DNA from: Deltaproteobacteria bacterium RBG_13_61_14
GTDB lineage: Bacteria > RBG-13-61-14
DNA: 9,203 nt
Reading direction: 5' to 3'
NCBI GenBank assembly: GCA_001797815.1
Contig: MGQK01000088.1
Span: forward strand, 14,294-23,496
Part shown: positions 1,483-5,832 of the stretch, piece after piece
Position numbering within the stretch: the stretch's first letter is position 1
Layout: every line of letters begins with the position of its first letter
The notes under the pieces: model-generated
What the model was told of the DNA's origin: nothing
What the model saw: only the letters and a program-made list of their open reading frames with translations
Database searches by the model: none
Made by a program: the position numbers and the translations under genes

Positions 1483-3015
1483 ATGGGAAAAATTTTGGTG
1501 GTGGACGACGAGCTTTTCTACCGCGAGCTAACGGCGGACATCCTCCGCAAGGAAGGCCACCAGGTGACCGCGGCCAAGGACGGCCGCGAGGCCCTGGACC
1601 TGTTCAAGCGCGACGAGTTCGATCTTTGCCTGCTGGACGTGGTCATGCCCGGCTCCTTTGACGGCCTGACCGTGCTGGGCAAGGTCAAGCACACCGACCC
1701 GGACCTGCCGGTGATCATGCTCAGCGCCCATGAGGACCAGCGCCTGGTGCTGCGGGCGCTGCGGCAGGGCGCTTTCGACTACCAGCGCAAGCCGATCTCG
1801 GCGCAGGAGCTCAAGATCGCGGTGGACCGGGCCCTGGCCACGCGCAAGCTGGCGAAGGATCACAAGAACAAGCTGAAGCGGCTGGCCAGCCTGGAGGAAG
1901 GCTCCAAGCGGTTGGCCGGCTGGGCGGGCCAGAAGTTCCGGATCGAGGACCTGGAGCGCGAATACGAGATGTTGGAGACCACGGTCAACCTGGTCTCGGG
2001 AGTGCTGGAGTGCGAGCGGGTGAGCGTGATGCTCTTGGACCCTGCCGAGAAGAGGCTGCGGGTGGCGGTGGCCACCGGCTTGAGCAAAAGCCAGATCCGG
2101 CAGGAGTCCAAGGAGGCGGGCAAGAGCATTTCCAACTACGTGCTCGAGACCGGGGAGGCGGTGCTGGTGACCGACGTGGCCTCGGACGAGCGGTTCAAGG
2201 AATCGGAATACGCCAGCCAGTACCGGACCGGCTCGTTCGTGATCGCGCCGCTGAAAGTAGGCGACCGGATCATCGGGACCATCAACGCCAACGACAAGAA
2301 GGACAGCCAGCCCTTCATCGAGGACGACCTGGTTTTGCTCAAGACCTTTTCCCACCAGATCTCGCTCGGCTTTGTCCATGCCATGGCCCTGGCCGACCTG
2401 GACCGGGAGCGCAACCGGCTCAAACTCCTGAGCGAGCTCCAGCGCATCCTCTTCCAATACCTGGAGCCGGAGGAAATGCTCCGCCAGATCCTGATCAAGT
2501 GCCAGCAAATCCTGGAGGTGGTCTCCGCCGCCGTCTTTCTCAAAGACGAGCTCTCCGGCGAGCTCTGGCTCCGGATCGGGCTGAACGCGGGCAAGGAGAT
2601 CAGCGGAATCCACCGCATCCCGGTGGGCAAGTCCATCACCGGGCTGGTGGCCGAGTCGAACAAGATCCTGATCGTGAACAACCCGGCCAAGGAGCCGCGC
2701 TTCGTGGACGAGTTGGAGTGGCCGGAGAAAGGGGTCATCCGCAACCTGATGGCGGCGCCCTTGATGTTATCGGACCAGACCATCGGGGTGATCCGGCTCC
2801 TCAACCGGCGGGAGGGGAATTTCTCCGCCGAGGACGGCCGGCTGCTCAAGGACATTGCCGACTCCCTGGCCGTGGCCCTGCGCAACCTTCAGTTTTATGA
2901 GAAACTGAAAAAGAGCGTGGACGAGGTCATTATCACCAACCAGATGCTCCAGCGGGCCAACGACGAGCTGAACCTCAAGGCCAAGGAACTGGAAGCACTG
3001 AAGAAGAGGCATTAG
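1483..3015 (+). CDS. Response regulator with receiver and two GAF domains
   Basis: A 510-residue cytoplasmic signalling protein. The N-terminal receiver (about 1-120) has acidic pocket D8/D9, phospho-acceptor D52 (LLDVVMPG), S81 and the conserved K103 in RKP. GAF 1 spans about 155-298 and GAF 2 about 325-470; both contain typical pieces such as GKSISNYV, GKSITGLV and APLxxxxxxIGxI. A helical, probably coiled-coil tail (471-510) ends the protein. No histidine kinase, GGDEF, EAL, HD or DNA-binding domain is visible, so the output is unknown; it may act by protein contact, for example on a kinase encoded elsewhere. The ATG is supported by GGGAG at 1472-1476, six bases upstream. It lies between hslU and argB without an evident functional tie to either. 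GAF ligands cannot be predicted from the sequence. Confidence 0.9.
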   Translation: MGKILVVDDELFYRELTADILRKEGHQVTAAKDGREALDLFKRDEFDLCLLDVVMPGSFDGLTVLGKVKHTDPDLPVIMLSAHEDQRLVLRALRQGAFDYQRKPISAQELKIAVDRALATRKLAKDHKNKLKRLASLEEGSKRLAGWAGQKFRIEDLEREYEMLETTVNLVSGVLECERVSVMLLDPAEKRLRVAVATGLSKSQIRQESKEAGKSISNYVLETGEAVLVTDVASDERFKESEYASQYRTGSFVIAPLKVGDRIIGTINANDKKDSQPFIEDDLVLLKTFSHQISLGFVHAMALADLDRERNRLKLLSELQRILFQYLEPEEMLRQILIKCQQILEVVSAAVFLKDELSGELWLRIGLNAGKEISGIHRIPVGKSITGLVAESNKILIVNNPAKEPRFVDELEWPEKGVIRNLMAAPLMLSDQTIGVIRLLNRREGNFSAEDGRLLKDIADSLAVALRNLQFYEKLKKSVDEVIITNQMLQRANDELNLKAKELEALKKRH

Positions 3016-3103
3016 GCATTAGACTTTAGACTTTAGGCTTCAGAACCCCCATCGCCAGCGCCAGTTTCTTCGACTAAAGCCTAAAGCCTAATGTCTAATG
3101 CCT
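3014..3103 (+). repeat. Imperfect inverted repeat between response regulator and argB
   Basis: The left arm (3014-3040) has units GCATTAG, ACTTTAG and GCTT. The right arm (3076-3103) is close to its reverse complement (AAAGCCT, AATGTCT, AATGCCT). The arms start at the stop codon of the response-regulator gene and end shortly before the argB ribosome binding site. The 10-mer GCCTAAAGCC at 3079-3088 recurs at 5817-5826. The hairpin could act as a terminator or mRNA stabiliser, or be a mobile-type repeat; its function is not shown. Confidence 0.7.
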
Positions 3104-3142: not shown

Positions 3143-4024
3143 ATGGAGAAGGCGTTGGAGCGGGCGCGGATCCTGGTGGAGGCGCTCCCTTATATCCGGG
3201 AGTTTGCCAAGAAGACCATTGTCATCAAATACGGCGGGCACGCCATGGTCGAGCCCACCCTGCGCCAGGCCTTTGCCCAGGACATCGTGCTGCTCAAGGC
3301 GGTGGACATCCACCCGGTCGTGGTCCACGGCGGCGGGCCCCAGATTGACCAGGTGCTCGAGCGGATGGGGGTCCAGGCCAAGTTTGTGGACGGCATGCGC
3401 GTGACCGACAGCGAGACCATGGACGTGGTCGAGATGGTGCTGGGCGGCAAGGTGAACAAGGACATTGTCTCCCTGATCAACCGCGAGGGCGGCAAGGCCG
3501 TCGGGCTTTCCGGCAAGGACGGCACTCTGATCCTGGCCCGGCCTTACCAAAAGCCGATCCGGGAAGGGGACCCCCGGCCGCCGGAGCTGATAGACCTGGG
3601 CCACGTCGGCGAGGTGGAGCGGGTCAATGCCGAATTCCTGATCGGCCTGTGCGGACAGGAGATCATCCCGATCATCGCGCCGGTGGGGGTGGATGCGAGC
3701 GGCCGCACCTTTAACATCAACGCCGACCTGGTCGCCGGCGCGGTGGCCGCGGCGCTTCATGCGGAAAAACTGATCCTGCTCACCGACGTGGCCGGCGTGC
3801 TCGACCTCCAGGGCAGCCTGATCTCCTCCCTGCACGTGGACCAGGCGGGGAAATTGATCGCCGACGGCGTGGTCCGCTCGGGCATGATCCCCAAGCTGGA
3901 TTGCTGCGTGGACGCGCTCAAGCGCGAGGTGAACAAGGCCCACATCATTGACGGCCGGGTGCCCCATGCCGTGATCCTGGAACTCTTTACCGACGCCGGG
4001 ATCGGGACCGAGATTTATCGCTGA
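3143..4024 (+). CDS. argB: Acetylglutamate kinase (arginine biosynthesis)
   Basis: Phosphorylates N-acetyl-L-glutamate with ATP, the second step of the acetylated ornithine/arginine pathway, in the cytoplasm. From the ATG with the strong ribosome binding site it is 293 residues, normal for the family. Motifs of the amino acid kinase fold are KYGGHAM (29-35, with transition-state Lys29), VHGGGPQI (61-68), RVTD (86-89), FNINAD (190-195), LLTDVAGV (212-219) and SGMIPKL (246-252, catalytic Lys251). The N-terminal helix (about 1-22) and the C-terminal block KAHIIDGRVPHAVILELF (265-282) are features of the hexameric, arginine-inhibited form, so feedback inhibition by arginine is likely. No other arg gene follows; the next genes are the tiny putative selenoproteins, which have their own candidate promoter. 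Confidence 0.96.
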   Translation: MEKALERARILVEALPYIREFAKKTIVIKYGGHAMVEPTLRQAFAQDIVLLKAVDIHPVVVHGGGPQIDQVLERMGVQAKFVDGMRVTDSETMDVVEMVLGGKVNKDIVSLINREGGKAVGLSGKDGTLILARPYQKPIREGDPRPPELIDLGHVGEVERVNAEFLIGLCGQEIIPIIAPVGVDASGRTFNINADLVAGAVAAALHAEKLILLTDVAGVLDLQGSLISSLHVDQAGKLIADGVVRSGMIPKLDCCVDALKREVNKAHIIDGRVPHAVILELFTDAGIGTEIYR

Positions 4025-4065: not shown

Positions 4066-4094
4066 TTGACAGCCGGGATTTTGGAGGCTATTCT
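4066..4094 (+). promoter_or_regulatory. Sigma-70-type promoter before the small membrane-protein pair
   Basis: A perfect TTGACA (4066-4071) is followed after exactly 17 bases by TATTCT (4089-4094, four of six matches to TATAAT). The predicted transcript start is near 4101, which is the A of the next ATG, so the mRNA would be leaderless or nearly so. A GGAGG at 4083-4087 lies inside the promoter spacer, 13 bases before the ATG, and would be transcribed only by read-through from argB. Confidence 0.6.
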
Positions 4095-4100
4095 AAGAAC

Positions 4101-4277
4101 ATGAATAGTTTTTGGATCTTGACGGGCATTCTCGTTCTTTGGTTCGCCCTCAACCGCTGGATTCTGCCCCGCTTCGGAGTCAAGACCTGAATGGCCCCGG
4201 AATGCGACGTCCGTGACCGACGTCCAAGCCAAACCTCCTGCTCCTCTCCGCCTTCCTCCCAGGAGCCGTCCCCATGA
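4101..4277 (+). CDS. Putative small membrane selenoprotein, UxxxC motif (in-frame TGA read as Sec)
   Basis: With the TGA at 4188-4190 read as selenocysteine this encodes 58 residues; read as stop it gives only 29. Residues 3-18 (SFWILTGILVLWFALN) form one transmembrane helix, followed by basic NRWILPRFGVKT, then Sec30-MAPE-Cys34 and a Ser/Pro-rich tail. The UxxxC spacing suggests a redox-active or metal/chalcogen-binding pair near the membrane surface. Three observations favour readthrough. A hairpin with SECIS geometry starts 16 bases after the TGA. The extended frame stays open to 4277. Its stop then overlaps the next gene's ATG as ATGA, a classic translational-coupling junction. From memory, and unchecked, small proteins with GVxTCMSGxC at this position exist in other bacteria, which would make this a Sec/Cys pair. 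The function is unknown. If the TGA is a stop, a 29-residue single-helix peptide remains. Confidence 0.65.
4203..4226 (+). promoter_or_regulatory. Candidate bacterial SECIS hairpin 1
   Basis: GACGTC (4206-4211) pairs with GACGTC (4219-4224) around the loop CGTGACC (4212-4218). Two further pairs, T4203-A4226 and G4204-C4225, form below a bulged C4205. The apical loop begins 21 bases after the TGA and has G in its second position, followed by T. This fits the general model of bacterial SECIS elements, in which SelB recognises a short loop with an early G about 16-37 nt after the UGA. The element lies inside the extended coding region, as it must in bacteria. Confidence 0.6.
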
Positions 4278-4492
4278 ACGCCCCGACTCGACCCCGGCGC
4301 GTCTGGCCCTGGCTGGGCCTGGCCCTCGGCGCCCTGCTCGGCGGGCTTTACGGCCACTACCTCGGCTGCCACCGGGCTTGACCCCTGACCGGCAACCTGT
4401 GGTTCACAGGTCTCTTCGGCGCCGTCCTCGGATATTCCCTCTTCGACCTCTTCTTCTCCGGCCCTCGCCCCCAACCTCCCCACCCGGAATAA
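4274..4492 (+). CDS. Putative DUF6132-like membrane selenoprotein, CxxxU motif (in-frame TGA read as Sec)
   Basis: Reading the TGA at 4379-4381 as Sec gives 72 residues, about the usual size of DUF6132 proteins. The layout is a basic N-terminus (MNAPTRPRR), helix 1 (about 11-31, Gly/Leu-rich), GCHRAUPLTGN (31-41, with Cys32 and Sec36), helix 2 (about 42-61, containing GLFGAVLGYSLF) and a Pro-rich tail. DUF6132 proteins, as I recall them, carry GCxxGxCPITSNP between two helices followed by a YGAxxG motif; the TGA falls exactly on the second Cys of that motif, and recognisable family sequence continues after it. The ATG has AGGAG at 4261-4265, eight bases upstream, and overlaps the preceding stop (ATGA). 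The biochemical function of the family is unknown; a membrane thiol/selenol pair suggests redox or metal/chalcogen handling, which is inference. selA, selB and selC are not in the window. Confidence 0.78.
4395..4411 (+). promoter_or_regulatory. Candidate bacterial SECIS hairpin 2
   Basis: ACCTGTG (4395-4401) pairs perfectly with CACAGGT (4405-4411) around a GTT loop (4402-4404). The loop starts 20 bases after the TGA at 4379-4381 and begins with G then T, matching the bacterial SECIS model. The first hairpin of this pair has nearly the same spacing (21 bases) but an unrelated stem sequence, so the similarity is structural rather than a sequence duplication. Confidence 0.7.
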
Positions 4493-4635: not shown

Positions 4636-4724
4636 AGATGGGAGTTTCTGATCCAGAACAGGCCGGCGAGCCGGACCCAAGCCGGCTTCGAACCGGAATT
4701 AAATTTTAAGAAGGAGGAATGAAA

Positions 4725-4937
4725 ATGCCGGACAGCACCTACAAGATCATCGAGCTGGTGGGGACCAGCAAAACGTCCTGGGAAGAGGCGGCCAAGAATG
4801 CCGTCGAGACCGCGTCCAAGTCCCTCAAGGACCTCCGCATTGCCGAGGTCAACCAAATGGACATGAGGGTCGAGAACGGCAAGGTGGTCGCCTTCCGCGC
4901 CCGGGTCAAGGTTTCCTTCAAGTATATGGGCAAATAA
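4725..4937 (+). CDS. Dodecin family protein
   Basis: A 70-residue protein with the dodecin beta-alpha-beta-beta pattern: YKIIELVGTS (6-15), helix EEAAKNAVETASKSL (20-34), then EVNQMDMRVENGKVVAFRAR and VKVSFKY (61-67). Dodecins assemble into hollow dodecamers that store or buffer flavins or related ligands in the cytoplasm. In classical members a Trp in an LDWFEV-type strand stacks the flavin; here the matching segment is LRIAEV, with Ile39 in that place, and the only Trp is at 19 in TSWEEA. Flavin binding is therefore uncertain. AAGGAGGA at 4711-4718 is six bases from this ATG; the in-frame ATG at 4719 directly abuts it, too close to be used. The gene appears monocistronic, with its own candidate promoter and a strong hairpin downstream. 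Confidence 0.88.
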   Translation: MPDSTYKIIELVGTSKTSWEEAAKNAVETASKSLKDLRIAEVNQMDMRVENGKVVAFRARVKVSFKYMGK

Positions 4938-5797: not shown

Positions 5798-5826
5798 CTA
5801 ACGCCCAAAGACTAACGCCTAAAGCC
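5798..5826. repeat. Tandem 14-base repeat between dehydrogenase and methyltransferase genes
   Basis: Two copies of a 14-base unit (CTAACGCCCAAAGA at 5798-5811 and CTAACGCCTAAAGC at 5812-5825) fill this short spacer. The second copy contains GCCTAAAGCC, which also occurs in the inverted repeat before argB (3079-3088). It belongs to the same style of intergenic repeat but shows no opposing arm here. Confidence 0.5.
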
Positions 5827-5832
5827 TTCTTC

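Follow-up and report, generated by a model that had tools for sequence, protein, structure and literature searches.

Overlapping genes for two probable small membrane selenoproteins in Deltaproteobacteria bacterium RBG_13_61_14

Two overlapping reading frames with internal TGA codons

The window, the whole 9,203-nucleotide stretch of DNA that was analyzed (G000:C88:14294-23496), comes from the genome of Deltaproteobacteria bacterium RBG_13_61_14 (4.7 Mb in 132 contigs). The original prediction, made from the sequence, was of two short ORFs with one in-frame TGA each; both were confirmed, flanked by argB and a dodecin gene (Table 1). With TGA read as selenocysteine (Sec, U), the ORF1 translation is MNSFWILTGILVLWFALNRWILPRFGVKT-U-MAPECDVRDRRPSQTSCSSPPSSQEPSP and the ORF2 translation is MNAPTRPRRVWPWLGLALGALLGGLYGHYLGCHRA-U-PLTGNLWFTGLFGAVLGYSLFDLFFSGPRPQPPHPE. 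The ORF1 stop codon that is reached after read-through overlaps the ORF2 start codon as ATGA, and the AGGAG described ahead of ORF2 is also present. The motif of the second protein is CxxxU, as had been proposed; for the first protein, UxxxC had been claimed, whereas the actual motif is U-x4-C (UMAPEC). A single promoter had also been proposed for the pair. A sigma-70-like promoter does occur as sequence, but it is putative, and it is so near the ORF1 ATG that, if it were used, the mRNA would be leaderless.

Elsewhere in the window, intergenic imperfect inverted repeats of ~30 nt with spacers of 21-37 nt occur at 1385-1468 and 3007-3103. They are composed of GATTTTAGATTTTGG-like and CTTTAGGCATTAG-like words, and similar words were seen by eye again near 5800-5830.

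Table 1. Features at and around the two ORFs, in window positions.
Feature	Position	Strand	Description
Sigma-70-like promoter (putative)	4066..4094	+	TTGACA-N17-TATTCT, upstream of ORF1; 10/12 matches, 0.2 expected by chance in the region
ORF1	4101-4277	+	ATG 4101, in-frame TGA 4188-4190, stop TGA 4275-4277; 58 aa, single TM
Sec codon of ORF1 (U30)	4188..4190	+	Nearly all relatives have TGA at this column; TGC in G425
SECIS-like hairpin of ORF1	4206..4224	+	6-bp stem GACGTC, 4206-4211/4219-4224; loop CGTGACC
Shine-Dalgarno-like AGGAG of ORF2	4261..4265	+	Within the ORF1 read-through region, 8 nt 5' of the ATG
ORF2	4274-4492	+	ATG 4274, in-frame TGA 4379-4381, stop TAA 4490-4492; 72 aa, two TM
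Sec codon of ORF2 (U36)	4379..4381	+	At the second Cys of GC-x4-C-P-[IL]-T; 7 other Sec forms at the same column
SECIS-like hairpin of ORF2	4395..4411	+	7-bp stem, 4395-4401/4405-4411; loop GTT
Dodecin-like gene	4719-4937		Just downstream of the ORF1/ORF2 pair

Selenocysteine machinery and conservation of the ORF1 family

All four of selA, selB, selC and selD, which the original prediction had proposed to look for, were found in the genome. Contig 7 carries selB (355 bits) and tRNA-Sec (68 bits); selA (562 bits) lies directly upstream of selB, and selD (373 bits) adjoins selA/selB. The region G000:C7:12752-18945 brings together selD, selA, selB, an AAA-ATPase-like ORF and selC, and the selD gene has one internal TGA of its own (a Sec-containing SelD). 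Reading of TGA as Trp under a reassigned code was rejected: argB ends with TGA (4022-4024) as a normal stop, and no relative that was read has Trp at the position.

A single-sequence search with ORF1 already obtained relatives with TGA. These define a family of ~47-65 aa with one transmembrane helix and the consensus LP[KR]LGVxTUMSxxC. Using a five-row profile search, we identified the family in 41 of 386 phylum-spread genomes; selB was present in all 41, compared with 171 of the 386 genomes overall (hypergeometric p=1.5e-16). A collection of species genomes was also scanned with a TGA-requiring pattern, which returned at least 118 stretches, and 80 of these were read. Among the matches listed, 78 of the 80 were clean family members from many phyla, including Deltaproteobacteria, Acidobacteria, KSB1, Armatimonadota, Planctomycetes, Spirochaetes, Verrucomicrobia, Zixiibacteriota, Margulisbacteria, Thermodesulfobacteria and others; the other two (L170 and L196) lacked a transmembrane helix and were dropped as chance matches. 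The clean members share a short N-terminus, ~17 hydrophobic residues, LP[KR][LFM]G[VI]xTUM, usually followed by xxC, and a short charged tail. The first Cys stands exactly five residues after U in 92 of the 118 loci among the matches listed.

Within the phylum of genome G046, 53 of 82 genomes carry the ORF1 family. No selB was found in nine of the 53, most of which are incomplete. One of these genomes, G415, is rated 100% complete and has a TGA-bearing ORF1 gene, and its missing selB reflects either an assembly gap or a relic. Another genome of this phylum, G425, has TGC at the Sec column of an otherwise typical gene that adjoins DUF6132. This natural Cys form is the one Cys homologue among ~90 genomes with matches, the rest having almost exclusively Sec. 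One further relative (G247:C168:3078-3197, L046) has Arg at the Sec column and early TAA stops; it ends soon after the column, and we took it to be a decayed gene or a sequencing error.

As the original prediction stated, perfect hairpins follow the two TGAs in the window. Of the 277 TGA triplets on both strands of the window, 4 are followed by a perfect stem of ≥6 bp whose loop has an early G, and both candidates are among these 4. Taken singly, the two hairpins are not unusually stable (folding z of -1.3 for ORF1 and -0.04 for ORF2), and the significance of the hairpin is at the level of the family, not from either window hairpin alone. A SECIS-like hairpin, defined for the family as one that starts 12-30 nt after the TGA, has a stem of ≥5 bp and carries G within the first two positions of its loop, occurs in 88 of 117 ORF1-family loci (75%) among the matches listed, compared with 14% of synonymous recodings made with local codon usage (Fisher p=1e-43). 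The natural sequences also form more stable folds than the recodings (Wilcoxon p=1e-17). In close ORF1-family pairs, synonymous change after the TGA was 0.30, compared with 0.13 expected from random mutation.

Standard annotation would stop at both UGAs, and the window hairpins on their own carry no significance; the locus could then be taken to encode a pair of short remnant peptides, each terminated by an ordinary stop, with no recoding. We find this explanation barely credible. In ORF1 the frame is open past the in-frame UGA and the flanking residues are conserved, with MSxxC conserved downstream; TGA is kept over phyla, and TAA and TAG are absent from the column in the members read. Family-level SECIS enrichment, the Cys form and the co-occurrence with selB, without exception in the phylum-spread sample, also argue for recoding. 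Chance ORFs were likewise rejected by conservation. Across both families, the sequence downstream is conserved in homologues, in which the first position is TGA (rarely Cys) and the second is either TGA or Cys.

ORF2, operon structure and gene neighborhood

Aligned to the Pfam family DUF6132 (PF19628), ORF2 scores 17.3 bits (E=0.0037), below the gathering score of 23.2. ORF2 does match L018 at E=1.4e-6, and L018 itself scores 38.7 bits against PF19628; in addition, 27 of 31 aligned relatives match PF19628 at E≤0.01. ORF2 thus has homology to an accepted member, and like DUF6132 it has a two-helix, glycine-rich architecture and the GC..C-P-L-T loop motif; it differs in having Sec for the second Cys and in the spacing Cx3U. 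Because ORF2 falls under the gathering score, we describe it as a probable Sec variant related to DUF6132 and not as a formal Pfam member. An AlphaFold model predicts a simple helix pair, with helices at 10-29 and 42-61 and the Cys/Sec pair in the loop between them, at low confidence (pLDDT 71.5, pTM 0.37).

DUF6132-like matches occur in 26 of the 386 phylum-spread genomes, and most of the non-Sec ones have Cys. In seven further DUF6132-like genomes, all with selB, TGA stands exactly at the second Cys (GCNSGGUGIT, GCNGGGUAIT, GCTTGGGUAIN, GCTNGUTLE, RCSGGVUALT, RCIGAKGUSIT and GCNGGUALFN), so that the Sec of ORF2 also occupies a Cys position of its homologues; this count leaves out G206, with TGA at the gene end, and G044, a false match.

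Both families are present in 31 genomes of the G046 phylum, on the same contig in 26. In all 26, the two genes are on one strand and ≤1.8 kb apart, and because of this the pairing is a conserved operon. Spacing is often ≤~80 bp, or else 300-450 bp, which is room for an FmdB zinc-ribbon gene (seen in G046 and L209). The presence of the two families in this phylum is uncorrelated (p=0.49), and the link is therefore physical, not obligate. Adjacency was also seen in L151, L209 and L218 (KSB1), some of which coincide with genes from the phylum search; in G106 the two genes are 2 kb apart. The conserved neighborhood across other bacteria, which the original prediction had proposed to look for, was thus found, and its view of a translationally coupled double-Sec pair stands as far as the operon link goes, but the overlapping double-Sec version is rare, with two cases seen: this window and L207, from a Deltaproteobacterium. 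On the match strand of L207 (reverse complement of the locus), the double-Sec tandem of overlapping ORFs lies at ~560-930; the second protein there is divergent and matches weakly, with UPLTCNP and without the first Cys.

We surveyed the neighbors of the 118 ORF1 loci among the matches listed, with family names taken from one example each and with CcdA, TlpA, RND and MBL neighbors assigned by eye. The recurrent neighbors were FmdB (20 loci), thioredoxin/TlpA (18), ArsR (16), rhodanese/YgaP-like/MBL (11), ECF sigma with zf-HC2 anti-sigma (8), RND pumps (8), DUF302 (5), DUF6132 (5) and CcdA (4). FmdB (p=1.6e-7), thioredoxin (p=8e-4), rhodanese/YgaP-like (p=5e-4) and ECF sigma with zf-HC2 (p=0.007) genes were nearer than the flanks predict. 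In L220 (G220, candidate division CSSED10-310), from ~537, a WCAPC-containing thioredoxin forms an in-frame fusion with an ORF1-type Sec domain. DUF6132 loci also have thioredoxin, ArsR and OsmC neighbors. At the window locus, neither thioredoxin nor rhodanese is adjacent to the pair, whose neighbors are argB and dodecin. Across the family, the thioredoxin, FmdB, rhodanese, YgaP-like and ArsR neighbors point to thioredoxin-linked thiol/sulfur redox at the membrane.

The same neighborhoods bear on three other roles for the pair as real selenoproteins. In the first, the pair would carry or release sulfane sulfur (S0) as a persulfide relay in sulfide detoxification or assimilation, acting with rhodanese, a YgaP-like membrane domain and MBL-fold dioxygenase-like proteins. 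Neighbors of these kinds are near in 10 of their 11 listed loci, OsmC lies beside DUF6132 or ORF1 at several loci, and many carriers bear the names of sulfate-reducing groups; thioredoxin and FmdB partners are commoner, however, and neither protein has a sulfur-transfer domain. We regard this role as possible, if on the doubtful side.

In the second, Sec/Cys pairs would bind Hg, Cu, As or similar soft metals and metalloids, with control by ArsR and adjoining RND efflux. A mercuric-transport-like selenoprotein is tabulated in a 2026 review (PMC13188914). ArsR repressors are near in 11 of their 16 loci (p=0.014), and at six loci an RND pump gene of the same orientation terminates 117-694 bp upstream (the proximity test scores these pumps as far because the genes are long). 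Against metal handling, ArsR regulators sense thiols too. We recognized no merA/merP, copA or arsB/arsC in the recurrent clusters, and redox better fits the thioredoxin, CcdA and FmdB neighbors, which makes metal handling unlikely.

In the third, the two proteins would sense redox state and signal thiol stress to an ECF sigma factor and its anti-sigma factor. ECF sigma and zf-HC2 genes lie near ORF1 at seven loci, and in five loci from Desulfobacterota they follow it directly, but they are missing from most loci, this one included, and we consider such a role very unlikely. In the five Desulfobacterota-type loci (L153, L159, L184, L194 and L202), the ORF1 gene is followed after ~65 bp by the ECF sigma and the zf-HC2 anti-sigma genes.

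Proposed role and relation to known selenoproteins

Our preferred reading is an operon of two genuine selenoproteins that most likely form a membrane-bound, thioredoxin-linked selenol/thiol redox unit, and we give it a probability of roughly 0.8. The computed evidence comprises the Sec machinery, the conserved UGA, the SECIS-like hairpins, selection past the UGA, the operon linkage and the neighborhood; from it we infer topology (by the charge rule), coupling, electron flow, substrate and the exact reaction, each as a proposal. Based on the K+R distribution, the ORF1 tail is predicted to lie inside and the DUF6132 loop outside. ORF1, with one transmembrane helix, would hold the selenol of its TUMSxxC motif just inside the membrane, and ORF2 would form a two-helix hairpin whose short outer loop bears the Cys/Sec pair. 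Ribosomes that read through the first UGA may thereby reach the ATGA overlap, which would couple the two products. Cytosolic thioredoxin would keep the ORF1 selenol reduced, and the pair would act at the membrane or across it, reducing or moving disulfide or sulfane-sulfur equivalents. The two-component membrane selenol/thiol module of the original prediction is supported as an interpretation, and none of the findings named as refuting it emerged from the checks made.

In a stronger form, which we advance tentatively and think rather improbable, ORF1 and DUF6132 would be a two-part transmembrane relay that runs from thioredoxin to the inner-face Sec and from there, as electrons or sulfane sulfur, to the outer-face Cys/Sec. 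DsbD/CcdA would likewise connect cytosolic thioredoxin with outside thiols, and ccdA-like genes are found near the ORF1 family at the four listed loci counted above; CcdA is polytopic, with its Cys within helices, and we saw no homology between DsbD/CcdA and the ORF pair. The YgaP-like membrane domain (PF11127) and rhodanese, recurrent neighbors of the family, are also small membrane proteins linked to sulfur transfer, but they have another motif and no Sec. Eukaryotic SELENOK and SELENOS are small selenoproteins that span the membrane once and have Sec in a disordered tail on the cytosolic side; the likeness to ORF1 is one of architecture, with no sequence relation claimed, and ~8 residues separate Sec from the end of the helix in the bacterial family.

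The multi-selenoprotein operons GrdA-GrdB, Sao and Tso (PMC13188914) resemble this locus in that adjoining selenoprotein genes are thought to cooperate. They involve other protein families, whereas here two very small membrane proteins are encoded by overlapping genes. A 2025 paper by Haft and Tolstoy is said to deal with the Tso operons. We compared its families through the review table and NCBIfam only.

The 2026 review tabulates 119 prokaryotic selenoprotein families (PMC13188914), among which neither the ORF1 motif or family nor DUF6132 or its Sec form is listed. Searches of 22 ORF1-family members gave no credible NCBIfam or Pfam match; weak Pfam matches of ORF1 (Arabinose_trans, ATP synthase 8 and others) were under the cut-offs and were rejected as scattered similarity between transmembrane helices. 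PDB sequence searches returned no match, and we found no paper linking DUF6132 with selenoproteins in the literature searched. Only the first of the two proteins therefore belongs to a family without a name, since the second relates to an existing Pfam family.

Judged from its sequences, the ORF1 family appears to be a widespread bacterial selenoprotein family that is missing from the catalogs checked (Pfam, NCBIfam and the 2026 table), yet it is present in about one-tenth of the phylum-spread sample and in most genomes of one phylum. It was likely missed because its members are short (47-65 aa) and have hardly any Cys homologues, whereas current predictors rely on Sec/Cys pairs; according to the deep-Sep authors, selenoproteins without Cys homologues may be missed by their method (PMC12013277). 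This suggests that further Sec-only microproteins remain hidden. DUF6132 gains a partner and a testable context, and among the matches listed, carriers of the ORF1 family exist in culture (Desulfocicer vacuolatum DSM 3385, Thermodesulfatator autotrophicus and Geomobilimonas luticola). If the relay is real, it would be a minimal selenium-based counterpart of DsbD/CcdA, of ~130 residues in all, that escaped notice owing to the tiny size of its first subunit and that subunit's near lack of Cys homologues.
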